NCBI GenBank assembly: GCA_946061345.1
Contig: CAMGRA010000002.1
Location: forward strand, 1 to 36,444
Direction of reading: 5' to 3'
DNA from: an uncultured Clostridia bacterium
GTDB taxonomy: Bacteria > Bacillota > Clostridia > Oscillospirales > Oscillospiraceae
DNA: 36,444 bases
The translations under genes were made by a program, and so were the position numbers. This document shows, one piece after another, positions 19,464-33,309 of this stretch. Under the pieces are notes generated by a model, which did no database searches, was not told where the DNA came from, and saw only the letters and a list, made by a program, of their open reading frames with translations. Position 1 is the stretch's first letter. Every line of letters starts with the position of its first letter.

Positions 19464-22400
19464 TTATTTGCCGAACTTTTCCACAAAGCGCATGAGCACC
19501 GTTGCGATTTCCGCGCGGGTGGCGCTGCTTGCGGGGAGAATGTAGGTTTTGCCGCCCTCGGCGGAGCCTTGGATGATCTCCTCGGCAACGGCCCAGCTCA
19601 TGGCCTCTTTTGCGTAGCTGCGGACCTGATCTGCGTCGGGGAAGCCGTCCAGATCGGCACGGGCTTCGCTGACCTTGCCCTTGTAGTCCGTGTAGCGGTA
19701 GAGGATCGTAACCATCTGCTCGCGGGTCACGGGATCGTCCGGGGCAAATACGCCGTCGGAAACGCCGTTGACGATTTGGTTGGCGGCGGCCCAGCAGACC
19801 GCGTCGGTGTACCAGCTTTCGTCCACATCCTTGAACGGATTCTCAAGGCCGGAAACGTCGGGGTTGCCCTCTGCCCGGTACAGGACTGTGACCAGCATGG
19901 CACGGGTCATCTCCGTCTGCGGCTCAAAGGTGTCTTTTCCCATGCCGTTCATCAGACCGTTGACGCTGGTGTATTTCACCGCCTCGTAGAACCAGTCGGT
20001 CTCATTGACATCGGTATAGGGATTCACGAAGGGGACTTCCGGCATCTCTATGGTCACATCGCTCATGTCATAGAGGGAGGTCTGGCCGCCCAGGAAGCGG
20101 TAGTAGGCAGTCAAAGCGTAGTAGCCCTGCTCTGTTGCCATACCGTCACGGTCACCGCTGGGAAGATGACAGAAGCCACCGCCTTCCACATAATAGTCAC
20201 ACAGGGCGTCAACTGCACTGCGTCCGTTCTTGATAAAACGGACATCGGTGTTCGGGTCGATACCCAAGGCTGTCAGGGCGGCGATCACCTGAGCGGAAGA
20301 TTCCGCGTTGGCGGTATTCCAGGAGCCGTAGCCGCCGTCTTTCTGCTGAGCTTCGGAGAGAAGCGCGAGGGCAGCGTCAACAGCCACCTTTACCGCTTCA
20401 TTTCCGCTGTAGTAGGGAGCCAGTGCCTGCAGCGCCATGGCGGTCATATCCGGATCGCCGATGTCGCCGGAGAGCGCCCAGCCGCCGTCCTCCAACTGCG
20501 CGGAGAGAATGTAGGCGATCAGCTTTTCGCGGGTGACCTGTTCTGCGCCCTCGGGTGCGGCGGGGATCTCATACTTGCCGCTGTCAAAGGCAATCAGTGC
20601 CCAGACCGGGCCGTTGATGCCCTGCTTTGTCAGGTATGCCATATCGGTCAAACCCTGCAGCAGATCGTGACCGTCCACGTCGGTGACATCCTTTCCCATG
20701 GCAGTCAGGGCGAGAATGACGCGGGAATTGTCCGTGGATTTCGAGCGGTGGAGCTGCTCTGCATCGTTGATATTCTGCTTAACGTAGTCAACCACGTTGT
20801 CATAGTAGGCATCAGGCACGTCCCGGCCGCTTCTGGCAAGGCCAATGATGATCCAATCACCGCCAACGGAGCCGACCGCGGGTGTTTGCTCCGCGGACAG
20901 AGCTTCCAGATAGCTGCCGGTGGCCAGATAGATGGTTTCCACGTCGGCGTGGGGCAGCTTCAGGATCGCAAGAAGGGCCTCCGCCTCCGTCAGCACGTCG
21001 TAGTTGGTGACCAGGACCTTTTGGGCATCGGTCAGGGCATCGTAAGCCGTCCGGGCGGCGTTGATGGCCGTTTCAGATTCCGCCGTGACGGCGCCGATGG
21101 CGTCGATCAGCCCGATGACTGCATCGGCTGCAAGCTGATCCTTTGCCGCCTGGGTCATTCCCAGGGCGAAAACGTTGCTGCTGTCGTTTTTATAGTAGAG
21201 CGCGCCGTCGCTGCCTGCAATGACGCTGCAAACACAGAACTGTTCATAGCCTGCCGCGTCGTACAGGGTGGTCTGGACTGCCTCAGAGCCGTCGGCCTTT
21301 GCCTTGATCACGTTGAGTCCGCCTGGGTTGGCGTTATAGGTGACATAGAGATAGACATAGCCGCTTGCCTCATAAGCAGTGGAAAGTAGGATGGAACACT
21401 GGGGATAGGCCGGTTCCTCCACGGACCAGAGGATCTCCATCGAGTCCGCGTCCACGGCAATGATATTATTGCTGCCGGACCAGTTTCCCACGCCGAGATA
21501 AACGATGCCGTTATAGACGACCGGCGTGCCGGTGGAAGCGCTGCCGCAGGCCGAGCAGTCCTTCACGGTCAGATCGGACAGAACGCCGGTTTCTGCATCC
21601 AGGGCAGCGCGGCAAAGGCTGGCGTTGTTCAGAGTGAAGTAGACCTTGCCATCCTCATAGCACACGGTGGAGCGAATCGAGCCGTCACCAACAGTCAGAT
21701 CAGAAATGAGAGCGCCGGTATCCTTGTCGCGGCTGAAGATATGGCCGCTGTCGCTGCCGCAGACCACATAATCACCGACGACTACCGCGCCTGCCCAGTA
21801 GTAGCCCATTTCGTCCGTCTGCCGCCAAACCAGAGAGCCGTCCGCTGCATCCAGACAGACGAAGGCGTATTCCCCGTTGTAGCCGAAGCCTACGTAGATC
21901 TTCCCGTCGGCGCAGGCAATGGGGCTCTGTGCCTGACCGCCCAGAGCGTCGGAATAGGTCCAGAGCGCCTCCAGTGTTTTGGCGTTGAAGGCCTGAATGG
22001 TGCCGCCGCCCAACGGGCAGAAGATGATCCCGTCTGCATAGGCAGCGGGTACGGAGCCCCAGCTTGTCGAGGCGCACATCTGCGCGGAAGCCAGAACCTC
22101 GCCGGTCTCCAGGCTCAGCTTTTTGATGGAATTGCCGTAGAGCACCACCAGACTGTCGTCTACGATCAGCATGGGGCTGGGAGCATCCGACCAACCGGAG
22201 GAGTGCTTGACGGCCCACTTCAGTTCCGTTTCTTCCGCACTGCGCGGCGTAGCGGCGCTTGTCACGCCGTTATTTTGGCTGTTGCCGCGGAAGCTGGGCC
22301 AATCCGCGCCGACAGAAGGATCCACCTCGTCCGGCAGATCGACGGTGATGGTGTAGGTGGTGGGGGTCGCGCCGGAATTCATGGATTCGCCGGTGCCGAC

Positions 22401-23096
22401 CTCCAGGGTAAGCACGGTGCCGTCCGTTACGGGAACGGTGGCGGTGCGCTTATACTCTGTTTCGCCCGCCATAATGTGTACCTGAAAATTCTTGTTGGTC
22501 GCGGTGGGCGTCACGACGATGCCTTCCGTGCCGGCAGGAAGCGCCAGGGTATATTCCAGCGTTTCGGACGCGAAAGCAGGGGAGAGGGTACCCTTGCTGA
22601 AGGCGAGGGCCTTCAGACTGGTGTCGTTGCTGCCCCAGTCGCTGCCCAGATCTGTGCCGTAATCGCAGGAGTACAGGATGGCGATCTCGTCGCCTGCTTC
22701 CAGAGTTCCGTCAGCGACGGTGTAGTGCTCAAAGCCGTAGTTGGTAAACCAGTCGTTCAGGGTGCCCATCCAGCCCGACATGGCGCCGCCGTCATAAGCG
22801 GCTAGGCCGTCCACACTGCTGATGTAGCCGCTGTCCAGGCCCTCAGCAGTCAGATTTGCTTCCTCCAGTGCCACACCGACACAGCTCAACATGGTAGAGC
22901 TTTCGTCGATCTCTACCCATGTGTCCACAAGGGTACCGGCCCAGGGAGCGCCGTCTTCCACGGAAAGTGTGTTGTTCTCCACGGTCACGTGTACCTGATC
23001 CTTTGTCTCGTCCCGCTCGGCGGCAAGGGCCGAGAAGGGGACAAGGCTCAGGACCATGGCAAGGACCAGGAGAAGGCTTACAATTCGTTTCTTCAT
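19464..23096 (-). CDS. SLH-anchored surface protein with DUF4430, PQQ-like propeller and alpha/alpha-toroid; candidate corrinoid binder
   Basis: A 1210-residue secreted protein. The signal peptide MKKRIVSLLLVLAMVLSLVP ends near ALA-AE (25-27). Domains in order: DUF4430 (about 34-155, with GAMSGWMGTLNDWFTNYGFE); cadherin-like sandwich (160-255, LKALAFSKGTLSPAF); PQQ-type beta-propeller (265-640); short helical domain (645-712, AYDALTDAQKVLVTNYDVL); an alpha/alpha-toroid of the prenyltransferase-like fold (717-1010, LEDGGWAL and QKDGGYGSW); three SLH repeats (1022-1210) for cell-wall anchoring. DUF4430 is related to the transcobalamin C-terminal domain, and transcobalamin's other half is also an alpha/alpha barrel. 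A cobalamin riboswitch controls the gene, so corrinoid capture is the best inference. ATG 23096 has GGAGG seven bases upstream; ATG 23102 is too close to it. Confidence 0.85.
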   Translation of the reverse strand: MKKRIVSLLLVLAMVLSLVPFSALAAERDETKDQVHVTVENNTLSVEDGAPWAGTLVDTWVEIDESSTMLSCVGVALEEANLTAEGLDSGYISSVDGLAAYDGGAMSGWMGTLNDWFTNYGFEHYTVADGTLEAGDEIAILYSCDYGTDLGSDWGSNDTSLKALAFSKGTLSPAFASETLEYTLALPAGTEGIVVTPTATNKNFQVHIMAGETEYKRTATVPVTDGTVLTLEVGTGESMNSGATPTTYTITVDLPDEVDPSVGADWPSFRGNSQNNGVTSAATPRSAEETELKWAVKHSSGWSDAPSPMLIVDDSLVVLYGNSIKKLSLETGEVLASAQMCASTSWGSVPAAYADGIIFCPLGGGTIQAFNAKTLEALWTYSDALGGQAQSPIACADGKIYVGFGYNGEYAFVCLDAADGSLVWRQTDEMGYYWAGAVVVGDYVVCGSDSGHIFSRDKDTGALISDLTVGDGSIRSTVCYEDGKVYFTLNNASLCRAALDAETGVLSDLTVKDCSACGSASTGTPVVYNGIVYLGVGNWSGSNNIIAVDADSMEILWSVEEPAYPQCSILLSTAYEASGYVYLYVTYNANPGGLNVIKAKADGSEAVQTTLYDAAGYEQFCVCSVIAGSDGALYYKNDSSNVFALGMTQAAKDQLAADAVIGLIDAIGAVTAESETAINAARTAYDALTDAQKVLVTNYDVLTEAEALLAILKLPHADVETIYLATGSYLEALSAEQTPAVGSVGGDWIIIGLARSGRDVPDAYYDNVVDYVKQNINDAEQLHRSKSTDNSRVILALTAMGKDVTDVDGHDLLQGLTDMAYLTKQGINGPVWALIAFDSGKYEIPAAPEGAEQVTREKLIAYILSAQLEDGGWALSGDIGDPDMTAMALQALAPYYSGNEAVKVAVDAALALLSEAQQKDGGYGSWNTANAESSAQVIAALTALGIDPNTDVRFIKNGRSAVDALCDYYVEGGGFCHLPSGDRDGMATEQGYYALTAYYRFLGGQTSLYDMSDVTIEMPEVPFVNPYTDVNETDWFYEAVKYTSVNGLMNGMGKDTFEPQTEMTRAMLVTVLYRAEGNPDVSGLENPFKDVDESWYTDAVCWAAANQIVNGVSDGVFAPDDPVTREQMVTILYRYTDYKGKVSEARADLDGFPDADQVRSYAKEAMSWAVAEEIIQGSAEGGKTYILPASSATRAEIATVLMRFVEKFGK

Positions 23097-23205
23097 TGTC
23101 ATACCTCCAAGCAAAGAATTGGTTGAAGTGTCTTGCATCCGGCCTGCCTTTTCGGCAGACGCGATAGCGCGGCCCCTTTGCCGGGACAGTCCTTTTGCAA
23201 GGCGG

Positions 23206-23244: not shown

Positions 23245-23303
23245 CGTTTTTCCGCGCACAAAGCAGCCAGCGCTCCGTACTTGCAGAGCCTGACCGAGGA
23301 CAC

Positions 23304-23489
23304 CGCTTGAGCAGGTCTCCTGACTTGCGTATTTACAGCACCCCCGCAGCCTTCTCAGAGCAAAGCTCCAATGACCGGCTTTCGCCATGCAGGGTGCCTC
23401 CACGCTTACAGTGGCGGTACCGTTCGTGAGTTTCACACGATTCCCTATTCTCCCGTGGGCTTGCCTGCAAGCCGTTGGGCACTCAAACG
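23304..23489 (-). promoter_or_regulatory. Cobalamin riboswitch, classical type (upstream of SLH surface protein)
   Basis: Read on the minus strand, this leader carries the textbook cobalamin-box pattern in order: AATAGGGAAT, GTGTGAAACTCAC, ACGGTACCGCCACTGTAAG, AAAGCCGGTCATTGG and AAGTCAGGAGACCTGC. The ends close as a P1 helix, CGTTTGAG (minus strand of 23482-23489) with CTCAAGCG (minus strand of 23304-23311). A promoter lies about 20 bases upstream and an intrinsic terminator about 60 bases downstream. High corrinoid would be expected to repress the gene. Confidence 0.95.
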
Positions 23490-23508
23490 TTATTCACTTT
23501 CTGCTTAA

Positions 23509-23537: not shown

Positions 23538-23619
23538 TCGAATCCTGAAAAAAGGATTGCGCCGGAAAGAAAAATGTGCTACCATGAATACAACGGCAGT
23601 TGCCTGTATACTTTATATA

Positions 23620-23760
23620 CGAATCACGGTTGAATTGGAATGGGAAAATCCCAACGGTACCAAGCCGCCGTAGACGGACAGAAAGCCGCACAAGGCCATT
23701 GGAGCGATCTGAGAAGACCTGTGCAAAGGGTGTCCGGAGTCGGAATACGGACCGTGATCG
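23620..23760 (+). promoter_or_regulatory. Compact cobalamin-type riboswitch, variant (upstream of corrinoid operon)
   Basis: The + strand leader aligns with the cobalamin core: TGGGAAAATCCCAACGGTAC matches the GGTGAAAATCCNNNACGGTCC core, GCCGCCGT replaces GCCACTGT, GGCCATTGG matches the AGCCAnTGG region, and TGAGAAGACCTG replaces CAGGAGACCTG. A P1 helix closes it: CGAATCACGGT (23620-23630) with ACCGTGATCG (23751-23760). A 3' arm GTCCG/CGGAC (around 23732-23750) could form the last hairpin. It is about 45 bases shorter than the divergent riboswitch and deviates in the B12 box, so a variant subclass is likely. The upstream promoter is not clear; TATACT at 23607 is a possible -10. Confidence 0.78.
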
Positions 23761-23833
23761 AAGCAGAGAGACTCTTGGGGATGGTCTGTCGGCTTTTTCT
23801 GCGCCCTGCGAATGGGCTTATTTGTGCGTCTGA

Positions 23834-23857
23834 AAGTCCCCGAACGGGGACTTTTTT
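23834..23857 (+). terminator. Riboswitch-linked intrinsic terminator (plus strand)
   Basis: AAGTCCCC-GAAC-GGGGACTT (23834-23853) followed by T's to 23857, ending 20 bases before the start codon of the first operon gene. This is the expected expression platform. TTGGGGAT near 23775 could compete for the left arm as an antiterminator (inference). Confidence 0.9.
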
Positions 23858-23877
23858 CTCGTCTATGGAGGCTTTTT

Positions 23878-25146
23878 ATGAAAAAGCGGATCGCAAATTT
23901 CATTATGATCGCCGTCATCGTGCTCATAGCCGCCGTTGGAGTTCTGGCGGTGGGGCATATCCAGGGCTGGTTCGACAAGGCCGACGGGGAGAACGCCGTG
24001 CTTTCCGCAGTGCGCGGGATCGTGACCGTGGAGCGCGGCGGCGTTGCCTATGATGCCGAAGCGGGCACCGTTCTCCGGCAGGGAGACCGGCTGACGGCTT
24101 CTTACGGTGCCACGGCAACGATTCAGGTGGGCGGCGGCTGGCTGACCATGGGCGAAAAGACGGAGCTGTCGGTCACGGAGCCTTCGGCAGACGGCTTTGC
24201 CGCGGCGGTGGCCTCCGGCGAGGTATTTTTCTGCGCCGAAACGCCCATGACAGTCGCCTTTGACCGTTACGAGGCCGTTTTTTTTGATGCCGTGGCATCT
24301 CTCAGCGTTCGCAGCGGCGCCCGGAGCATCAGTGTCTATGAGGGAACTGTCTCCTGCGAAGATAACGAAGCCCGGGCAGGGCAGATGCTCAACCTGATCG
24401 GGGATGACTGCAGTGTAGCGGCCTGCCGGATCGAGTCGCTGAATGATTTTTTGATCGTACAGCTCCGCGCCGCCAACGAGACCCGCTCACTCTGCTTCAC
24501 CAATGAGGACCTCGACCGGCTGGTGGCAGACCGTCAGGCCTCCATGCAGGCGCTTTTGACAGCTCCGACCCAACCGGAGGCCTCTGGGGAGCCGTCAGAG
24601 GAAACAGAGCCTTCTTTCGCAGAAACGCAGGAAAACACCGCGCCCTCCATAGCGCCGACAGAGAAGCCGACGGAAGCTACACAGGCTGCATCCCCGACGG
24701 AAACGGAGCCCTCCGAGACCCAGCCGGAGGAGACGGAACCTCCCGTAAAAAACACCTGCACTGTTTCCATCCGATGCGACACGATTCTGAATAACATGGA
24801 CAATCTTGCGCCGGGCAAAGCGGAATTTGTCCCCGGCGACGGCTTCATTCTCTATCCCGTCACCGTGGAATTTGAGGAGGGTGAGACGGCCTTTGACGTG
24901 CTGACCCGCGTCTGCACAACCTATGGCATCCAGATCGAATACAGCTGGACGCCCATGTATGACAGCTACTACATCGAGGGCATCGGCCACCTGTACGAAT
25001 TTGACTGCGGCAGCGAGTCGGGCTGGATGTATAAGGTCAACGGCTGGTTCCCCAACTACGGCTGCTCCGTCTACACGCTGAAAGACGGCGACAGCATTGC
25101 CTGGTGCTATACCTGCACCGGCCTGGGGGCCGACATCGGCGGCTGA
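23878..25146 (+). CDS. Membrane-anchored FecR-like / DUF4430 protein; candidate corrinoid-binding component
   Basis: A 422-residue protein. An N-terminal helix (FIMIAVIVLIAAVGVLAVG) has no obvious cleavage site, so it probably anchors the protein outside the membrane. Residues 40-170 resemble a FecR-type domain (VRGIVTVERGGVAYDAEAGT, VLRQGDRLTASYGATATI, GEKTELSV). A Pro/Glu/Thr-rich spacer follows (about 222-292). The C-terminal 130 residues are DUF4430, the transcobalamin beta-domain relative: VEFEEGETAFDVLTRVC, SGWMYKVNGWFPNYGCSVY and DGDSIAWCYT. ATG 23878 has GGAGG six bases upstream and follows the riboswitch terminator; the frame extends to 23812 but through the terminator. As first gene before the ECF genes it may hand corrinoid to the transporter. 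Confidence 0.83.
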   Translation: MKKRIANFIMIAVIVLIAAVGVLAVGHIQGWFDKADGENAVLSAVRGIVTVERGGVAYDAEAGTVLRQGDRLTASYGATATIQVGGGWLTMGEKTELSVTEPSADGFAAAVASGEVFFCAETPMTVAFDRYEAVFFDAVASLSVRSGARSISVYEGTVSCEDNEARAGQMLNLIGDDCSVAACRIESLNDFLIVQLRAANETRSLCFTNEDLDRLVADRQASMQALLTAPTQPEASGEPSEETEPSFAETQENTAPSIAPTEKPTEATQAASPTETEPSETQPEETEPPVKNTCTVSIRCDTILNNMDNLAPGKAEFVPGDGFILYPVTVEFEEGETAFDVLTRVCTTYGIQIEYSWTPMYDSYYIEGIGHLYEFDCGSESGWMYKVNGWFPNYGCSVYTLKDGDSIAWCYTCTGLGADIGG

Positions 25147-25158
25147 GTGGAGTAGCAT

Positions 25159-26028
25159 ATGAAACGAGACGCTTTTTCCCAGTATCATCCCGCGGTGAAT
25201 TTCGTGTTCTTCGTCGGAGCCATCGGCTTCGGCGTGGTGATCCAGCATCCTGCCTATGCGGCGGCGGGCTGTGTCTCCGCCGCGCTCTATTATCTTTTGC
25301 TGCGGGGCAGGTCTGCATGGAAGCTGATCCTTTCCATGCTCCCGCTGGCAGCGCTGCTCACCCTTATCAATCCGCTGTTCAACACCTCCGGCGAGCACAT
25401 TCTCTTCCGGGTGTTCGGACGGCCCTATACCCTGGAGGCGCTGTACTACGGCATGGCCATCGCCGCAATTTTTGTGGTGATGATGCTCTGGTTCGGCTGC
25501 TATAACGCCGTGCTGACCAGTGACAAGTTTACCGGACTGTTCGGAAATCTGATCCCGGCTTTGTCCCTGCTTTTGGTGATGGTCCTGCGGATGATCCCCA
25601 ACTTCTTTAGAAAAATGAAGCAGATCATCGGTGCGCGGCGATCCATCGGCAAGGGCGCCGAGAAGTCCGGCAGCACCAAAGAGAAGATCGGTCAGGGAAT
25701 GACCGTATTATCAGCGCTGACGGACTGGGCGCTGGAGGGTAGTGTCGTGACTGCCGACTCCATGCGCGCCCGGGGCTACGGGACTGCCCGGCGCACCAGC
25801 TTTCAAATCTACCGCATGACCCTGCGGGACTGGGTGCTGCTGGCGCTCATGGTTTTTCTGGCGGCAGGCGTGATCGTCGCAGGCGGCGTCCGGGCTGAAT
25901 TTACCCCGATTCTGTCCATTGCGCCTCTGACCTGGGGCTTTGCTGCTTACTGCGTATTTCTCTCCATCCCCACGGCACTACACATCAAGGAGGCCCTCCA
26001 ATGGCGCATTTCCATATCCAAAATCTGA
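25159..26028 (+). CDS. ecfT: ECF transporter T component (EcfT), first copy
   Basis: A 289-residue membrane protein. EcfT couples the ATPases to the substrate-binding S component. Membrane helices lie at about 12-50 and 60-75, then NTSGEHILFRVFGRPYTLEA, LTSDKFTGLFGNLIPALSLLL and LVMVLRMIPNFFRKMKQI. The coupling helices carry the two short basic signatures, GARRSIGKG and DSMRARGYG (about residues 155 and 200). Two to three helices follow. GTGGAG lies six bases upstream of the ATG. The end overlaps the fused ATPase gene by 28 bases. A second T gene occurs at 28374 in the same operon. Confidence 0.9.
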   Translation: MKRDAFSQYHPAVNFVFFVGAIGFGVVIQHPAYAAAGCVSAALYYLLLRGRSAWKLILSMLPLAALLTLINPLFNTSGEHILFRVFGRPYTLEALYYGMAIAAIFVVMMLWFGCYNAVLTSDKFTGLFGNLIPALSLLLVMVLRMIPNFFRKMKQIIGARRSIGKGAEKSGSTKEKIGQGMTVLSALTDWALEGSVVTADSMRARGYGTARRTSFQIYRMTLRDWVLLALMVFLAAGVIVAGGVRAEFTPILSIAPLTWGFAAYCVFLSIPTALHIKEALQWRISISKI

Positions 26029-27662
26029 GCTTTTCTTACCCTAATGCGAAAAAGGAATCCCTGAGCGGGGTGACCCTCAGCGTTGAAAAAGGGGAGTATG
26101 TGGTCCTCTGCGGCAAGAGCGGCAGCGGAAAAACCACCCTCCTGCGGCACCTGAAATCCGTGCTGACGCCCCACGGCAAGCGCAGCGGACAAATTCTGTT
26201 CTGCGGTGTGCCCATAGATGAGGTGAGCAAGCAAGACCAGGCCTCCAAGATCGGCTTTGTCATGCAGAACCCCGACGATCAGATCGTCACGGACAAGGTC
26301 TGGCACGAATTGGCCTTCGGACTGGAAAGTCTGGGCTGCGACCAAAAGACCATGCGGCTCCGGGTGGCGGAAATGGCCAGCTATTTCGGCATCCAGGGCT
26401 GGTTCCACCGAAATGTGGCGGAGCTTTCCGGCGGTCAGAAGCAGCTTCTGAATCTGGCCTCCATCATGGCGATGCAGCCGGAGGTGTTGATTCTGGACGA
26501 ACCGACCAGCCAGCTTGACCCCATTGCCGCGTCGGATTTCCTGAATACGGTGCGTAAGATCAACCTGGAGCTGGGCACCACCATCCTCATCACGGAGCAC
26601 CGGCTGGAGGATATTTACCATGCCGCTGACCGGGTGGTCGTCATGGACGGCGGAAAGATCATCGCCAACGATACGCCTCGCAGGGTGGGGGAGCAGCTTT
26701 ACGCCCAAAATAACGAGATGTTCGCGGCGCTTCCCACGCCGGTGCGGGTGTTCTACGGGGCAAAGGCCGAGGGAGACTGCCCACTGACCGTCCGTGAGGG
26801 GCGCAACTGGCTGTCAAAAACTTTTGAAAACCGCACGCTGGCGGCGGTGGAGCCTGACAGTGAGCCTGCCATGGAGGAAGTAAGGAATCCTGCCTTGAAG
26901 GTAAAGGAGGCCTGGTTCCGCTACGAAAAGGACAGCCCGGACGTGCTGCGGGGTGTCAGCTTTGAAGTGCCTGCCGGCAGCCTGTTTGCCGTCGTCGGCG
27001 GCAACGGCGCGGGCAAGTCCACCGCTCTGAAAGCCGTCTGCGGCATCTGCAAAATCTACCGCGGCCGGGTGGAGATCTTCGGAAAGGACCTGAAAAAGTA
27101 CCGCTCCGGGGAGCTGTTTCAAAACTGCCTTGCCATGCTGCCCCAGGATCCCAAAAGCCTGTTTGTAAAAAAGACCGTCCGGGAGGAATTGGCCGAGATG
27201 TGCCGGGAGGAGGACAAGATCGCTCAGGCCGCCGCCCTCTGCGAGATCGAATCGCTGATGGACGCCCATCCCTATGACCTGTCCGGCGGCGAGCAGCAGA
27301 GAGCAGCCCTTGCCAAGGTTCTGCTGACCCAGCCGCGCCTCCTGCTTTTGGACGAGCCGACCAAGGGCCTGGACAGCTTCTTCAAGCAGAAATTCGCCCA
27401 AATACTGCGCAAGCTCAGACAGCAGGGCATGACCATTGTCATGGTGTCCCATGACGTGGAGTTCTGCGCTGAGCACGCCGACCTTGTGAGTATGTTCTTT
27501 GACGGCCAGATCCTCACCACGGACACGCCCCACCGTTTCTTCGGCCAGAACAGCTTCTACACCACGGCGGCAAACCGCATGAGCCGCTGCGTGTTCCGCA
27601 ACGCCGTCACCGCCGGGGATGTGGTGGCCCTGTATCAAAAGAACCGGGAGGGAAGCACATGA
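26001..27662 (+). CDS. Fused ECF transporter ATPase (EcfA-EcfA' in one chain)
   Basis: A 553-residue protein with two ABC ATPase domains, driving ECF import. Domain 1 has Walker A GKSGSGKTT (38-46), Q-loop region VMQNPDDQIV, signature LSGGQKQ (about 141) and Walker B VLILDEPTSQLDP. Domain 2 starts near 290 with Walker A GGNGAGKST (about 332), signature LSGGEQQR (about 426), Walker B LLLLDEPTKGLD and a switch His in MVSHDVEF. Both nucleotide sites look intact. AAGGAGG lies seven bases upstream, inside the previous gene. Its stop overlaps the S-component start by four bases. Confidence 0.93.
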   Translation: MAHFHIQNLSFSYPNAKKESLSGVTLSVEKGEYVVLCGKSGSGKTTLLRHLKSVLTPHGKRSGQILFCGVPIDEVSKQDQASKIGFVMQNPDDQIVTDKVWHELAFGLESLGCDQKTMRLRVAEMASYFGIQGWFHRNVAELSGGQKQLLNLASIMAMQPEVLILDEPTSQLDPIAASDFLNTVRKINLELGTTILITEHRLEDIYHAADRVVVMDGGKIIANDTPRRVGEQLYAQNNEMFAALPTPVRVFYGAKAEGDCPLTVREGRNWLSKTFENRTLAAVEPDSEPAMEEVRNPALKVKEAWFRYEKDSPDVLRGVSFEVPAGSLFAVVGGNGAGKSTALKAVCGICKIYRGRVEIFGKDLKKYRSGELFQNCLAMLPQDPKSLFVKKTVREELAEMCREEDKIAQAAALCEIESLMDAHPYDLSGGEQQRAALAKVLLTQPRLLLLDEPTKGLDSFFKQKFAQILRKLRQQGMTIVMVSHDVEFCAEHADLVSMFFDGQILTTDTPHRFFGQNSFYTTAANRMSRCVFRNAVTAGDVVALYQKNREGST

Positions 27663-28384
27663 AACGGTCTACGGTATCTTCCATTCTCACGGTTCTTCTG
27701 CTGATCCCCGCGACCCTCTATCTGGGAACCAAGCTCCCCGGCCGCTGGTATTACCTGACCAGCACGCTCATTATCATTGAGACCATGATCCCCTTTTTTC
27801 TGGCCTTTGAAAAGCGCAGACCTCAGGCCAGGGAACTGGTGACCATTGCGGTCATGGCGGCCATTGCGGCCGTATCCCGCGCCGCTTTCGCCTTCATCCC
27901 GAATTTTAAGCCCATTGTGGGCATCATCATGATCACGGGCATCGCCTTCGGCGCCGAGGCGGGCTTCCTGACGGGCACCGTCGCCGCCTTTGCCAGCAAC
28001 TTTTTCTTCGGCCAGGGACCCTATACCCCGTGGCAGATGATGGCTTACGGCTTCGGCGGCTTCCTGGCTGGCCTGCTCTTCCACAAAAAGCGGAAGCTGC
28101 ATCAGAAGCCTGTGCTCTATCTGGCGGTCCTCACAGCCTTTGGCTTCGTCGGCATTGTCGCCGTGGTGGGGCCGCTGCTGGACTGCTGCACCATCTTCAC
28201 CACGGGCACGCAGCTCACCTGGGCCTACGCGCTGGCCTGCTTTGCCTCCGGCTTCCCCATCAATGTGACCCATGGCATTGCCTGCGGATTGACCATGCTG
28301 CTTTTGAGCAAGCCCCTGCTTGACAAGCTGGACCGCCTGAAAACCAAATACGGCATGATGGAGGCCGGTACCGATGGGCTTTGA
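27659..28384 (+). CDS. ECF transporter S component (probable corrinoid or precursor specificity subunit)
   Basis: A 241-residue membrane protein with about six helices. It has the look of ECF S components: AVMAAIAAVSRAAFAFIPNF, MITGIAFGAEAGFLTGTVAA and a conserved loop SNFFFGQGPYTPWQMMAYG, with helix packing AxxxA. The S component binds the substrate; here the operon and riboswitch imply cobalamin, cobinamide or another corrinoid, or a lower-ligand precursor. The sequence alone does not fix this. It overlaps both neighbours (four bases upstream, eleven downstream), so stoichiometric production with both T components and the ATPase is likely. Confidence 0.85.
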   Translation: MKRSTVSSILTVLLLIPATLYLGTKLPGRWYYLTSTLIIIETMIPFFLAFEKRRPQARELVTIAVMAAIAAVSRAAFAFIPNFKPIVGIIMITGIAFGAEAGFLTGTVAAFASNFFFGQGPYTPWQMMAYGFGGFLAGLLFHKKRKLHQKPVLYLAVLTAFGFVGIVAVVGPLLDCCTIFTTGTQLTWAYALACFASGFPINVTHGIACGLTMLLLSKPLLDKLDRLKTKYGMMEAGTDGL

Positions 28385-29255
28385 ATGTTACCATCCGGCG
28401 ATCGGCCTGATCTATTTTGCTGCGGTCATCGCCGCGACGATCTGCTTTCAGCAGCCTGTCTTTCTGGCCATCTCTTTTCTCTGCGCTTTTGCCTACTCCG
28501 TGAAGCGGAACGGCAGGCGGGCGCTCCTCTTTGACCTCTGTCTGATCCCGCTCATTTTGCTGTTTGCCGGCTTTTATTCCGGCTATCACCACTTCGGCGT
28601 GACGGTTCTGGACAGGAATTTCATCGGCAACCGTATGACGCTGGAATCCCTCCTGTACGGCCTGACCCTGGGGACCGTGACCGCCGCAGTTTTCATGTGG
28701 ATGAGCTGCGTCTTTTCAATTTTTACGGCGGATAAGGTGGTCTACCTGTTCGGCAGGGTCAGCCCAAAGCTGTCCCTGTTTCTCTCCATTGTCCTACGGA
28801 TGGTGCCCCGGCTCAAGGTCCAGGCGAAAAAGGTCAGTACGGCGAGGAAAGCCATCGGCAGGGGAGCGGGTCAGGGCAGTTTCTTTCGCCGCCTTTCCAA
28901 CGGTATCAAGCTGCTGTCGATCCTGATCACCTGGCTGCTGGAATCCATGGCGACCATCTCCGATTCCATGCGCAGCCGCGGCTATGGCCGGAAAGGCCGC
29001 ACCGCCTTTTCCATCTACCGCTTTGACAGCCGGGACCGAAGCGTGGTCATCGGGATCTTCACCTGCCTGACGCTTCTGGCCATGGCGGTCCTCCTCGGGC
29101 AGACCGGCATGGACTTTGACCCCAGACTCCACATGAACCCGATCACGCCTCTGTCCTGCCTTTTCTATCTGGGCTACGGCGTCCTTTGCCTGCTGCCCCT
29201 GGGACTGGAAGTGACGGGAGAGCTTCGCTTTGCACACCTGAGGAAAAGCATATGA
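28374..29255 (+). CDS. ecfT: ECF transporter T component (EcfT), second copy
   Basis: A 293-residue membrane protein with the same plan as the first T component: FYSGYHHFGVTVLDRNFIG, FTADKVVYLFGRVSPKLSLF, LRMVPRLKVQAKKVSTARKA and DSMRSRGYGRKGRTAFSIYR. The two basic coupling signatures are STARKAIG and SMRSRGYG. It starts inside the S gene and ends overlapping the TIM-barrel gene. Possible meanings are an alternative T for the same ATPase, or a module acquired by duplication that serves a different S component. The two T proteins look clearly diverged, so the duplication is not recent. Confidence 0.88.
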   Translation: MGFECYHPAIGLIYFAAVIAATICFQQPVFLAISFLCAFAYSVKRNGRRALLFDLCLIPLILLFAGFYSGYHHFGVTVLDRNFIGNRMTLESLLYGLTLGTVTAAVFMWMSCVFSIFTADKVVYLFGRVSPKLSLFLSIVLRMVPRLKVQAKKVSTARKAIGRGAGQGSFFRRLSNGIKLLSILITWLLESMATISDSMRSRGYGRKGRTAFSIYRFDSRDRSVVIGIFTCLTLLAMAVLLGQTGMDFDPRLHMNPITPLSCLFYLGYGVLCLLPLGLEVTGELRFAHLRKSI

Positions 29256-30004
29256 AACGACAAAACTGGTACCTGTCCACCATCGACCCGCAGGCGGAAA
29301 AGTTGGTGCGGGAATACGGCCTGGGCTTGGAGATCGCCGAATTCTGCACTGCCTCCAACCTGGACGACAACCTGAAAGAGACAGACAGGGTTGTGGGCGA
29401 AAAAATAAAATACGCAGACCACTTCATTCTCCACGGCCCCTTTAACGAGCTGTTTCCCTGCGCCGTTGACCCGAAAGCAAGGGAGCTGGCCTCCTTTCGT
29501 TATGGCCAGGCCCTGGAACGTGCCCGAGCCTACGGCATCGGAAAGGTCGTTCTTCACGCGGGCTTTAACCCCTATTTATATTATCCCTGCTGGTTTGAAG
29601 AGCAGTCAATTGACTTTTGGCGGGCTTTTGAGATCCCCGACGGGATGACTGTCTGCCTGGAAAACGTTTTGGAAGAGAAGCCGGAGATGCTGGCAAATAT
29701 CCTACAGGCGGTGGACAGCCCGAAGCTGCGGATGTGCCTGGATTTGGGCCATGTGAGCGCCTATTCCAAGATCCCGGCGGAGGACTGGCTGCGGATCTGT
29801 GCGCCCTGGCTTTCCCATTTCCACATTCACAACAACGACGGCTCCCGGGATACCCACAGCGGCTTGACGGAGGGAATCCTTCCCGTGGAATCGCTGCTGC
29901 ACCTGGCGGAGAAGCTGTGTCCCGACGCGACCTTTACCCTTGAACTTCCCGAAGCAGGCACTTCTGTCTGCTGGCTGAAAGAAAAGGGCTTTCTGGAGGA
30001 ATGA
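29252..30004 (+). CDS. TIM-barrel protein, sugar phosphate isomerase/epimerase-like (xylose isomerase-like fold)
   Basis: A 250-residue protein of the AP-endonuclease-2/xylose-isomerase-like barrel. Metal-binding positions of the family are present: GKVVLHAGF, VCLENVLEEKPEM (Glu), CLDLGHVSAYS (Asp, His), SHFHIHNNDGSRDTHSGLTEG (two His, Asp) and FTLELPEAG (Glu), so it is probably an active metal enzyme. I use ATG 29252, which has GAGGAAA upstream and overlaps the previous stop; the frame extends back to 29186 as a shadow. Its place between the ECF genes and cobT is suggestive of a role in corrinoid or lower-ligand metabolism, but no known step of the pathway uses this fold. Substrate unknown. 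Confidence 0.8.
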   Translation: MKRQNWYLSTIDPQAEKLVREYGLGLEIAEFCTASNLDDNLKETDRVVGEKIKYADHFILHGPFNELFPCAVDPKARELASFRYGQALERARAYGIGKVVLHAGFNPYLYYPCWFEEQSIDFWRAFEIPDGMTVCLENVLEEKPEMLANILQAVDSPKLRMCLDLGHVSAYSKIPAEDWLRICAPWLSHFHIHNNDGSRDTHSGLTEGILPVESLLHLAEKLCPDATFTLELPEAGTSVCWLKEKGFLEE

Positions 30005-30006
30005 CC

Positions 30007-31089
30007 ATGGAATTACTGGACCTGGAGATCAAGCCGCTGGACGAGACGGCAATGTCTGCTGCCCGTGCGCGGCAGGCGCAGCTTGCCAAACCGCCCGGAA
30101 GCCTGGGACGGCTGGAGGAATTGTCCGTGCAGCTTGCGGGCGTCACGGGAAAAGTGCAGAGCACCATCAAAAAGAAGCATCTTCTGGTCTTTGCCGCCGA
30201 TAACGGCGTGGTGGAGGAGGGCGTGTCCAGCGCGCCCCGGTCCGTGACCCTGCAGCAGACGGTGAACCTGACACGGGCCAAGACGGGCGCCTCTGTGCTG
30301 GCAAAGCACTTTGGCTGCGGGATCACGGTCTGTGATGTGGGCGTGAATGCCGACATCACGGAGAAAGCCGTTTTGGACCGAAAGATCGCCTACGGGACGG
30401 GGAATATCGCCCACGGCTCTGCCATGACGCGGGAACAGGCCCTGACTGCCATCCGCACCGGCATAGAGCTGGCCCAAAGCACCGACGCGGACGTGCTGGG
30501 AGTCGGTGAAATGGGCATCGGCAATACCACGACCTCCTCTGCTGTGCTGGCGGTGCTGCTCGAAGCGGATGTGGAGGCTGTCACAGGCCGCGGCGGCGGC
30601 ATTACGGACGAGAGTTTCCGCAAAAAGAAGGACGTGATCCGCCGGGCCATCGCCGTGAACCAGCCGAACAGATTCGACGTGGTGGACGTGCTTGCAAAGG
30701 TGGGCGGCTTCGACATTGCCGCTATGTGCGGCGCGTTCCTGGGAGCCGCCGCGACACAGCGCCCGGTGGTGATCGACGGCTTTATCTCCGCGGTTGCCGC
30801 CTTGTGTGCGGTGAGGCTCCGTCCCAACGTCCGGGGCTACCTGATCCCCAGCCACGCCTCCTATGAGATCGGCTACCGGCTTGCCATGGATGCCATGGAG
30901 CTGCAGCCCATGCTTCTGCTGGGGATGCGCCTCGGGGAGGGAAGCGGCTGCCCCCTGGCCTTTGAGATCCTCTCTGCCGCCTGCGCGGTCATGAACCACA
31001 TGGCGACCTTTGACCAGGCCGGCATCAACGATGACTACTTAGACGAGATCCGCGTCGGCGACAAATTCACCGTGGAGGGAAAAGCATGA
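30007..31089 (+). CDS. cobT: Nicotinate-nucleotide-dimethylbenzimidazole phosphoribosyltransferase
   Basis: CobT transfers phosphoribose from nicotinate mononucleotide to a lower-ligand base such as 5,6-dimethylbenzimidazole, giving alpha-ribazole-5'-phosphate. The 360-residue length is typical. Seen motifs: AKPPGSLGRLEELSVQLAG, VFAADNGVVEEGVSSAP, VGEMGIGNTTTSSAVLA, VTGRGGGITDE and MRLGEGSGCPLAF (the Glu near residue 309 matches the catalytic glutamate). The start ATG 30007 is preferred to ATG 30001 because GGAGG (29995-29999) is seven bases away. It overlaps cobU by four bases. The base specificity cannot be read from the sequence. Confidence 0.97.
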   Translation: MELLDLEIKPLDETAMSAARARQAQLAKPPGSLGRLEELSVQLAGVTGKVQSTIKKKHLLVFAADNGVVEEGVSSAPRSVTLQQTVNLTRAKTGASVLAKHFGCGITVCDVGVNADITEKAVLDRKIAYGTGNIAHGSAMTREQALTAIRTGIELAQSTDADVLGVGEMGIGNTTTSSAVLAVLLEADVEAVTGRGGGITDESFRKKKDVIRRAIAVNQPNRFDVVDVLAKVGGFDIAAMCGAFLGAAATQRPVVIDGFISAVAALCAVRLRPNVRGYLIPSHASYEIGYRLAMDAMELQPMLLLGMRLGEGSGCPLAFEILSAACAVMNHMATFDQAGINDDYLDEIRVGDKFTVEGKA

Positions 31090-31631
31090 CAGTCTTTGTA
31101 AGCGGCGGCGCAAAAAACGGAAAATCCTCGTTTGCCCAGGATCTGGCTGTGAAATTAGCCAAGGGCGGCAAGCACTACTACGTCGCCACCATGATCCCCA
31201 GTGACGAAGAAGACCGGGAGCGCATCCGAAAGCACCTGGCTGACCGGGAAGGACTGGGCTTTGAGACCATCGAGTGCGGGAGAAACATCCTTTCCTGCCT
31301 GGATAAGGCGGAAAAGGACGCCACCTTTTTGCTGGACAGCGTGACGGCGCTGCTGATGAACGAGCTGTTTCCGAATCCTGCCGACGGAAAAATGGATACG
31401 GACGCGGCCTGGCGCTGCGCAGAGGACCTGGTCACCTTTGCCCAAAGCGTCCGAAACGCCGTGTTCGTCAGCGATTATATCTACTCTGACGCCGCCTGCT
31501 ATGATGAGACTACAGAGGTTTACCGTGCCGGTCTTGCGGCCATTGACCGGCGCCTGGTAGCGGCCTGTGACACAGTGGTCGAAGCGGCGGCAGGAAATTT
31601 TATCGTCCACAAGGGGGAAGCGCTCCTATGA
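31086..31631 (+). CDS. cobU: Adenosylcobinamide kinase / adenosylcobinamide-phosphate guanylyltransferase (CobU), divergent
   Basis: A 181-residue CobU-type protein that would phosphorylate adenosylcobinamide and then attach GMP. The P-loop is intact (FVSGGAKNGKSSFAQ), the RIRKHLADR segment carries the histidine that forms the GMP intermediate, and TFLLDSVTALLMNELF is the usual Walker-B-like strand. The C-terminal motif normally written NEVGxGIVP is replaced by SDYIYSDAACYDE, yet the following helix and ending AGNFIVHKG remain CobU-like. A second, short CobU-like gene two genes downstream retains what this one lacks. GTGGAGGG precedes the ATG, which overlaps cobT. Confidence 0.88.
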   Translation: MTVFVSGGAKNGKSSFAQDLAVKLAKGGKHYYVATMIPSDEEDRERIRKHLADREGLGFETIECGRNILSCLDKAEKDATFLLDSVTALLMNELFPNPADGKMDTDAAWRCAEDLVTFAQSVRNAVFVSDYIYSDAACYDETTEVYRAGLAAIDRRLVAACDTVVEAAAGNFIVHKGEALL

Positions 31632-32368
31632 AACAACTGCTCCATGCCTTTGCCATGTGCCAGTCCATGTTCTGCGCCCTCCCATGCCCCTGGCACATCT
31701 GGGACGAGGAAGCAAGGGACAAAATGCTGCTGTTTCTGCCTGTTGTCGGTCTGGAGATGGGCGCGATCTGGGCAGGGCTTGCCTATCTTGCGCGGCTCAT
31801 CGGCCTTCCCGCTCTTGTAACCGGACTGGTTCTATGCGCCTGTCCCTTTGTGCTGAGCGGCTTTATCCATCTGGACGGCTTTCTGGATGTGACCGACGCC
31901 GTGCGGTCCTGCCGGGAACTGCAGCGCAGACGGGAGATCCTCAAGGACCCCCACGTGGGTTCCTTTGCGGTCATCGGCTGTATTTTGTTGATGCTTGCGC
32001 AGTTTGCGCTGTTTGCGTCCGCGCCGGATGGCGCGGATTTGCGGATCTTATTTTTTATCCCGGCGGTGAGCCGCTGCTGCTCCGTCCTGGCGGTGTCTGC
32101 GCTGCGGCCCATGCACACCAGCCAATACGCCGCGAGAAAAAAATCAAAAGCGCAGAGTTGTATCATCGCGACCTCGCTGTGTGCCGCCGTTGCCGCAGGC
32201 TTCCTGCTCTGTGGGAAATACGGCTTTACCCTGTTGGGATGCCTGCTTGGTTATGGGCTGGCTCTGTGCAGGGGCTACAGGTCCCTGGAAGGGATGAACG
32301 GCGATATTTCCGGCTATGCTCTGACCGTCGGAGAACTGTGCGCTGTGGCGATTTTTGCGTTTCTATAG
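31628..32368 (+). CDS. cobS: Cobalamin synthase (adenosylcobinamide-GDP ribazoletransferase)
   Basis: A 246-residue polytopic membrane enzyme that joins AdoCbi-GDP to alpha-ribazole(-phosphate). Family motifs: LSGFIHLDGFLDVTDAV (about residues 76-92, metal-binding acidic residues), REILKDPHVGSFAVIG, PAVSRCCSVLAV and a terminal EGMNGDISGYALTVGEL. Around six hydrophobic helices are visible. AAGGGGG precedes the start, which overlaps cobU by four bases. Its product is dephosphorylated by the CobC-like protein at 32749 if the phosphate form is used. Confidence 0.95.
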   Translation: MKQLLHAFAMCQSMFCALPCPWHIWDEEARDKMLLFLPVVGLEMGAIWAGLAYLARLIGLPALVTGLVLCACPFVLSGFIHLDGFLDVTDAVRSCRELQRRREILKDPHVGSFAVIGCILLMLAQFALFASAPDGADLRILFFIPAVSRCCSVLAVSALRPMHTSQYAARKKSKAQSCIIATSLCAAVAAGFLLCGKYGFTLLGCLLGYGLALCRGYRSLEGMNGDISGYALTVGELCAVAIFAFL

Positions 32369-32377
32369 GAGGCGGCT

Positions 32378-32752
32378 ATGGTTTTGATCATCGGCGGCGC
32401 GTACCAGGGAAAGCTGGACTACGCCAAGGTCGTTTTTTTCATTGAAGATAACGAGATTTTCGCCTGTGACGGCGCTGAAATCGATTTTTCCAGGCGGTGT
32501 ATTTACCGCATTGAGGAATTCACTCTGGCCTGCGTTCGGGAAAACATCGATCCGACGGAGTATTTTCGTTCCCACCGGGAAAGGTGGAAAGACAGCATTT
32601 TGATCTGCCAAGATATTTTCTGCGGTGTGGTGCCGTTGGGCGAGGAAATGCGGGCCTGGCGGCAGGCGACCGGGCGGCTGTGCCGGTATCTGTCCGGGGA
32701 AGCCGCACAAGTCAGCAGGCTTTTTTGCGGCTTGGAGCAGCGGCTGAAATGA
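32378..32752 (+). CDS. Short CobU-like protein (degenerate P-loop)
   Basis: A 124-residue protein, about two-thirds of CobU length. The N-terminus VLIIGGAYQGKLDYAKV resembles the CobU P-loop but has Leu where Ser/Thr follows the lysine. The HxADR middle part and Walker-B strand are largely missing (only a short RRCIYRIEEFTL and DPTEYFRSHRERW segment lies between). The C-terminus ILICQDIFCGVVPLGEEMR and AWRQATGRLCRYLSGEAA matches the NEVGxGIVP-end of CobU well. AGGAGG lies five bases upstream of the ATG, and the stop overlaps the next gene. It may assist the full-length CobU or be non-catalytic; a direct role is inferred. Confidence 0.78.
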   Translation: MVLIIGGAYQGKLDYAKVVFFIEDNEIFACDGAEIDFSRRCIYRIEEFTLACVRENIDPTEYFRSHRERWKDSILICQDIFCGVVPLGEEMRAWRQATGRLCRYLSGEAAQVSRLFCGLEQRLK

Positions 32753-33309
32753 GCACCGTATATCTGATCCGCCACGGCAGGACTGAGGCCAACGAAAAAC
32801 ATCTCTACTGCGGAAGCTCGGATGTCCCGCTGTCCGAGGCAGGCATCATGGCACTGAAAAAGCTGACCTACCGTATTAAAAGCGCCCACTTCATCACCAG
32901 CGGTATGAAACGGACGGAACAAACACTGCAGGTGTTGTTCGGAAAGGTCCCTCACAGCCGGGAGCCAAGATTCCGGGAGATGGATTTTGGCCTGTTTGAG
33001 CTGCGCAGCTACGAAGAAATGAAGGACGACCCTGCCTATCAGGCGTGGATCAGCGGCGATAACGAGGCCAAGGCGGCTCCCGGCGGTGAGAGCGGCGTGC
33101 AGATGCAAAAAAGAGCTATAGAGGCCTTTTCGGAACTGAAAGAGACAGGACGGGATGTGGTGATTGTCACCCACGGCGGAGTGATCGCCGCGATCATGGC
33201 TCATCTGTTTCCCGAAGAAAACAAAAACCGCTATCAGTGGCAGCCGAATCCCGGGTGCGGATACGCTGTGTTTCAGGGTCGTTACGTGCCGTTAACGGTC
33301 ACCGGTTGA
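32749..33309 (+). CDS. cobC: Alpha-ribazole phosphatase-like histidine phosphatase (CobC)
   Basis: A 186-residue phosphoglycerate-mutase-type histidine phosphatase. YLIRHGRTEANEKHLYCG has the catalytic RHG (residues 8-10); TSGMKRTEQTL, REMDFGLFELRSYEEM and VIVTHGGVIAAIMAH (second catalytic His near 141) complete the set. CobC removes the 5'-phosphate from alpha-ribazole-P or adenosylcobalamin-P, the last step of nucleotide-loop assembly, and the operon position fits. ATG 32749 overlaps the previous stop (ATGA) and starts exactly at the fold; the longer frame from 32584 is a shadow. Other small-molecule phosphatase activities are possible. Confidence 0.9.
   Translation: MSTVYLIRHGRTEANEKHLYCGSSDVPLSEAGIMALKKLTYRIKSAHFITSGMKRTEQTLQVLFGKVPHSREPRFREMDFGLFELRSYEEMKDDPAYQAWISGDNEAKAAPGGESGVQMQKRAIEAFSELKETGRDVVIVTHGGVIAAIMAHLFPEENKNRYQWQPNPGCGYAVFQGRYVPLTVTG

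Follow-up and report, generated by a model that had tools for sequence, protein, structure and literature searches.

Paired long and short cobU genes flanking cobS probably encode two subunits of one heteromeric CobU in Clostridia

The closest described system is the canonical bifunctional CobU/CobP (PF02283; PRK05800; PDB entries 1cbu, 1c9k, 7tm8, 8yes and 9vio), an adenosylcobinamide (AdoCbi) kinase and AdoCbi-phosphate (AdoCbi-P) guanylyltransferase that serves as a signature gene for predicting gut-bacterial makers and salvagers of vitamin B12 (e.g. PMC6593275). In Salmonella CobU, guanylylation takes place at His-46, according to the title of Thomas et al. 2000 as cited in PMC8749415. The guanylyl transfer step is common to CobU and the archaeal AdoCbi-P guanylyltransferase CobY, which is without kinase activity (PMC4626045) and is described as non-homologous to CobU (PMC7242693). 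Here, we analyzed a 36,444-nucleotide stretch of an uncultured Clostridia bacterium of the Oscillospiraceae (hereafter the window; assembly GCA_946061345.1, contig CAMGRA010000002.1, positions 1 to 36,444), in which cobS lies between two CobU homologs of unequal length, referred to as long and short. Judged from sequence, the two genes probably encode the subunits of a single heteromeric CobU; the paired arrangement is old and is conserved in many gut Clostridia. The original prediction had raised the possibility that the two form one functional enzyme, and this is now supported by their linkage, their complementary motif loss, the exclusion of canonical CobU and two lineages of gene fusions.

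Reading of the open reading frames (ORFs) and motifs bore out the coordinates and motif descriptions given earlier, with one amendment. The long protein keeps the P-loop (GGAKNGKS), the RIRKH region, including the predicted equivalent of Salmonella His-46, and the acid of LLDS. It had been described as lacking an NEVGxGIVP-type motif; the motif residues are indeed replaced, with VSDYIYSDAACY occupying the canonical site and the arginines after GxGxVP likewise replaced, but the homologous C-terminal region is still there. The short protein, 124 residues long as previously read, has a P-loop without Ser/Thr (GGAYQGKL) and has lost the His region and the middle part; its C-terminal half carries DIFCGVVP...RQATGR, with GVVP, R92, R95 and G99 retained. 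The canonical single-chain set (P-loop GxxxxGK[S/T], RIxxH and GxGxVP) is present in neither protein. The Pfam CobU profile (PF02283), with a cut-off of 27 bits, covers the entire long protein, which thus belongs to the superfamily; in the short protein the match is confined to the C-terminal part, and the score lies just below the cut-off (Table 1). When the short protein was modelled alone, every Foldseek match with E < 0.001 was a CobU. Relatives of the short protein score as high as 50 bits by themselves against the Pfam profile. A comparison of the short-family profile with the single long sequence of the window, which as one sequence makes a weak profile, detected only the P-loop stretch.

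We then took a motif census of 173 long sequences (165 separate, 8 fused) and 186 short ones (178 separate, 8 fused). The P-loop GK[S/T] is intact in 171 of the long versus 18 of the short sequences, and GxGxxP in none of the long versus 158 of the short, a few of the remaining short proteins being long fragments typed as short. RIxxH is missing from all 186 short and GxGxVP from all 173 long sequences. As a reference for conserved positions, we used 37 canonical CobUs, in which 44 positions hold one residue in at least 90% of sequences; 11 of these are kept by both subunits, 19 by the long only, 7 by the short only and 7 by neither. The short-only positions are G142, G144, V146, P147, R153, R156 and G160, and the long-only positions all lie before position 140, N163 excepted. 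Conservative changes account for some of the positions kept by neither (D84 to E and W57 to F in the long protein; D157 to E in the short).

The lost catalytic motifs and sub-threshold Pfam score of the short protein are what a decaying, functionless duplicate would show, an explanation that we regard as exceedingly improbable. Purifying selection acts on the long and short genes as it does on cobS and cobT, and the ratio of nonsynonymous to synonymous substitution rates (dN/dS) of the short gene against three congeners is 0.14-0.21, similar to those two genes; the short protein is moreover conserved across families of the phylum, retains invariant residues and occurs in fusions. A chance or decayed ORF was rejected as well, given the dN/dS values and the recurrence of the gene in sister operons.

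The original prediction had called for a survey of co-occurrence, holding that absence of the short gene from sister operons would count against it. The short gene proved to be present in all three long-bearing congeners, and its linkage in the order is near-complete. Among 60 relatives, it occurs in 14 genomes, counting the window's, and each of these also has a CobU above the family cut-off; the long gene stands without it only in G040, at a contig end, and in G043 (the G012 and G040 loci look incomplete owing to contig ends). Across 248 sampled genomes of the order, 84 CobU loci were found in 82 genomes, window excluded; six of these loci belong to a different, solo CobU-like family, leaving 78 cobS-linked loci. 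The short gene is nearby in 73 of these, almost always in the arrangement long-cobS-short(-cobC). One further genome, G204, was rejected as pair-less after its short gene was found on a different contig, bringing those that hold both to 74 of 78. In a sample of 150 genomes from the phylum, 102 have a CobU; the short gene accompanies a degenerate CobU in 10 and a canonical CobU in none of 91 (Fisher P nominally 5e-13, inflated through common ancestry). Constant co-occurrence of paralogous subunits, as in a two-subunit enzyme, was therefore found in 74 of 78 order genomes and in 10 of the 11 phylum genomes with a degenerate CobU, G442 being the single one without.

Full-length matches to the short profile were recovered in 23 genomes of a 349-genome phylum sample, the window's included and several in other families. 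Eleven further short-bearing genomes, individually checked, have degenerate long genes only, scoring 82-139 bits. A scan of named genomes with five short sequences as query recovered relatives of the short protein at at least 542 genome-contig loci; the best 80, which were kept, are mostly from Oscillospiraceae and Lachnospiraceae and include Flavonifractor, Anaeromassilibacillus, Intestinimonas, Faecalicatena, Fusicatenibacter, Lacrimispora and Mediterraneibacter. In four loci from other families of the phylum (L281-L284), the short gene follows cobC, and the long and short proteins alike are more divergent, perhaps representing an early stage of the split. Beyond the pair, no complete CobU turned up in the genome of the window (56% complete), the third match (C3) being rejected as a P-loop match only; matches of this type recur in most relatives, whether CobU is present or not. 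We also observed a separate CobU-like family (L100 and L115; also L109, L117, L123 and L125) in which the His region is missing and an ETGFS motif is present. In the two loci examined, L100 and L115, its gene lies beside a PilT/T2SSE-type ATPase gene, away from cob genes, and the family may be related to CobU but recruited to type IV pili.

A phylogenetic tree built on 115 shared columns, few enough that its finer branching is unsure, resolved the long proteins as one clade and the short proteins as another, each with a Shimodaira-Hasegawa-like approximate likelihood ratio (SH-aLRT) support of 99; one seeming stray was a truncated long fragment. Seven Lachnospiraceae loci carry natural long-short fusions, as does G402, whose long half groups instead with the window's clade; fusion seems to have happened twice independently. 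Two of the Lachnospiraceae fusions (L203 and L216) adjoin a gene for the precorrin-8X methylmutase CbiC. We modelled the L223 fusion with AlphaFold2, using an alignment of 7 fusions together with 16 long and 16 short proteins, every one of these placed against the matching half. The two halves pack confidently in the model, which has a predicted local distance difference test (pLDDT) score of 92.3 and a predicted template modelling (pTM) score of 0.85, and the best PDB matches of the model are CobU, followed by KaiC, RAD51-paralog and F1-ATPase chains. Model and gene fusions are consistent with a complex in which residues would reach the partner's active site.

We therefore propose that the pair arose by duplication of an ancestral self-assembling CobU, after which the copies divided the work. 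The long subunit would have retained the nucleotide half, with the P-loop, the Walker B-like acid and the counterpart of the Salmonella CobU histidine to which guanosine monophosphate (GMP) is attached. The short subunit would have lost this half and kept the GxGxVP / R..RE..GR segment, which by analogy may enter the long subunit's active site across the contact. Neighbouring subunits reach into active sites in RecA-like oligomers such as F1-ATPase and RAD51. We infer that the separate proteins form a complex, complete the active site in trans and retain both activities.

The long protein could alternatively be a complete enzyme alone, with the short one a regulator or a scaffold tying it to membrane-bound CobS or CobC. 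This we consider unlikely. It would suit the position of the short gene between cobS and cobC, the existence of a long-only clade, which shows that a long-type CobU can occur without the short protein, and the membrane-tethered nucleotide-loop assembly complex proposed in PMC8749415. However, all long proteins have lost canonically invariant residues, precisely those kept by the short protein, which a regulator need not entail; the fusions join the long protein, not CobS, to the short one; and the long-only clade has itself undergone more change. A regulatory role accounts for the complementary residues less well than a single enzyme does.

The long-only loci (L128-L131 and L285, in G192, G043, G065, G078 and G442) mostly have a P-loop of the form GENxSGKS or similar and an altered C-terminus. 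In the tree this group is nested within the long clade, and therefore its ancestor probably lost the short partner. All five genomes have cbiB, so AdoCbi-P can be made directly and the kinase may be dispensable there; this hints that phosphorylation is the step in which the short subunit would be most important, and the clade may separate kinase from guanylyltransferase. A second rival accordingly divides the reactions, with the long protein alone as guanylyltransferase and the short one needed only for substrate binding in the cobinamide kinase step, hence losable where CbiB is present. We rate this as quite improbable. Besides the five cbiB-bearing genomes, it draws on the window's genus, where G000 and G012 are without cbiB yet keep the pair; but 19 of the 21 pair-bearing genomes examined have cbiB and still keep the short gene, which makes the contrast weak, and the P-loop belongs to the long protein. 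In the congener G012 (95% complete), the pair is present and neither CbiB nor another CobU was found, so this organism would only salvage and, should it start from cobinamide, would need the kinase. At least within the genus of the window, the pair therefore probably performs both reactions.

Several results weigh against a single heteromeric enzyme. Over the 44 canonical positions, the excess of complementarity above independent residue loss is not significant (P 0.30), and therefore we claim only a division by segment; the complementarity is in part a plain consequence of the deletion in the short protein. The alignment behind the fusion model includes no more than seven true fusions. Three like chains make up the canonical CobU structures and the fusions imply a 1:1 ratio, so a new assembly is needed. 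Finally, the short gene was undetected in four genomes of the order (G192, G043, G065 and G078) and in G442, all of which have a long-type CobU.

We lean towards a broader view of the heteromeric CobU, namely that a two-subunit enzyme of single origin, each active site combining a catalytic long and a motif-donating short subunit, replaces the one-gene enzyme across much of Oscillospiraceae, Lachnospiraceae and further families of the same phylum, and that the split may allow separate tuning of the kinase (salvage) and the guanylyltransferase (de novo synthesis). In a large group of Clostridia, CobU would then really be two genes; neither reaches the NCBI equivalog cut-off, and gene annotations and pathway calls for that group can be wrong as a result. 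As a natural dissection of a two-activity enzyme, the pair should also reveal which residues act in trans.

The cluster around the pair (Table 1) runs from a cobalamin riboswitch through a DUF4430 gene, energy-coupling factor (ECF)-type transporter genes and a TIM-barrel gene to cobT, long cobU, cobS, short cobU and cobC, with start and stop codons overlapping at cobT/long cobU, long cobU/cobS and short cobU/cobC. Among the transporter genes, ORF 25159-26028 matches no Pfam family and is putatively T-like by resemblance to 28374-29255. The TIM-barrel gene (29246-30004, forward strand; PF01261, sugar isomerase/endonuclease type) lies inside this corrinoid cluster, with the transporter on one side and cobT on the other. 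On the reverse strand, 19464-23138 encodes a 1224-residue protein that matches S-layer homology (SLH), DUF4430 and prenyltransferase-toroid-like domains. A cobalamin riboswitch (23293-23501, reverse strand) lies upstream of this gene, and the protein is possibly a surface-anchored corrinoid binder resembling transcobalamin. The other DUF4430 gene (23812-25146) is the first of the opposite cluster, with its own riboswitch ahead.

Table 1. Coordinates of the paired cobU genes and the accompanying cluster in the window
Feature	Position	Strand	Details and evidence
Cobalamin riboswitch upstream of the cluster	23610-23770	+	RF00174, 36.4 bits vs gathering score 31.5
ECF-type transporter genes (two T-like components, double ATPase, S component), upstream in the same cluster	25159-29255	+	PF00005, PF07155/PF12822, PF02361
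cobT, overlapping the long cobU start	30001-31089	+	PF02277, E 1.1e-129
Long CobU subunit (probable)	31086-31631	+	181 aa; ORF; PF02283, 95.5 bits (cut-off 27); motif census
cobS, cobamide 5'-phosphate synthase, between both cobU genes	31628-32368	+	PF02654, E 3.8e-38
Short CobU subunit (probable)	32378-32752	+	124 aa; PF02283, 26.8 bits, profile 109-167; model pLDDT 96.1
cobC-type histidine phosphatase, overlapping the short cobU end	32749-33309	+	PF00300, E 2.1e-37

A split CobU was not found described in the open full-text literature, subscription papers such as those on the CobU structures of 1998-1999 lying outside the search. The parts belong to a known family; the two-gene arrangement escapes the NCBIfam CobU equivalog and is undescribed in the open literature searched. 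Like the pair proposed here, F1-ATPase alpha/beta and the RAD51 paralogs are duplicated RecA-like subunits with one degraded P-loop and an expected donation of residues in trans, and their chains are among the next-best fold matches of the fusion after CobU; they are a mechanistic analogy only and not close kin, and the short CobU has an internal deletion. The canonical enzyme is one gene, whereas here there are two, neither half having all motifs, and the long protein (75.3 bits), the short protein (27.3) and a natural fusion (134.1) all fall below the 161-bit cut-off of PRK05800. Nevertheless, both subunits are homologous to canonical CobU and have the same fold, the operon neighbours cobT, cobS and cobC are common to both systems, and the long and short proteins jointly hold most of the conserved positions of the one-gene enzyme.
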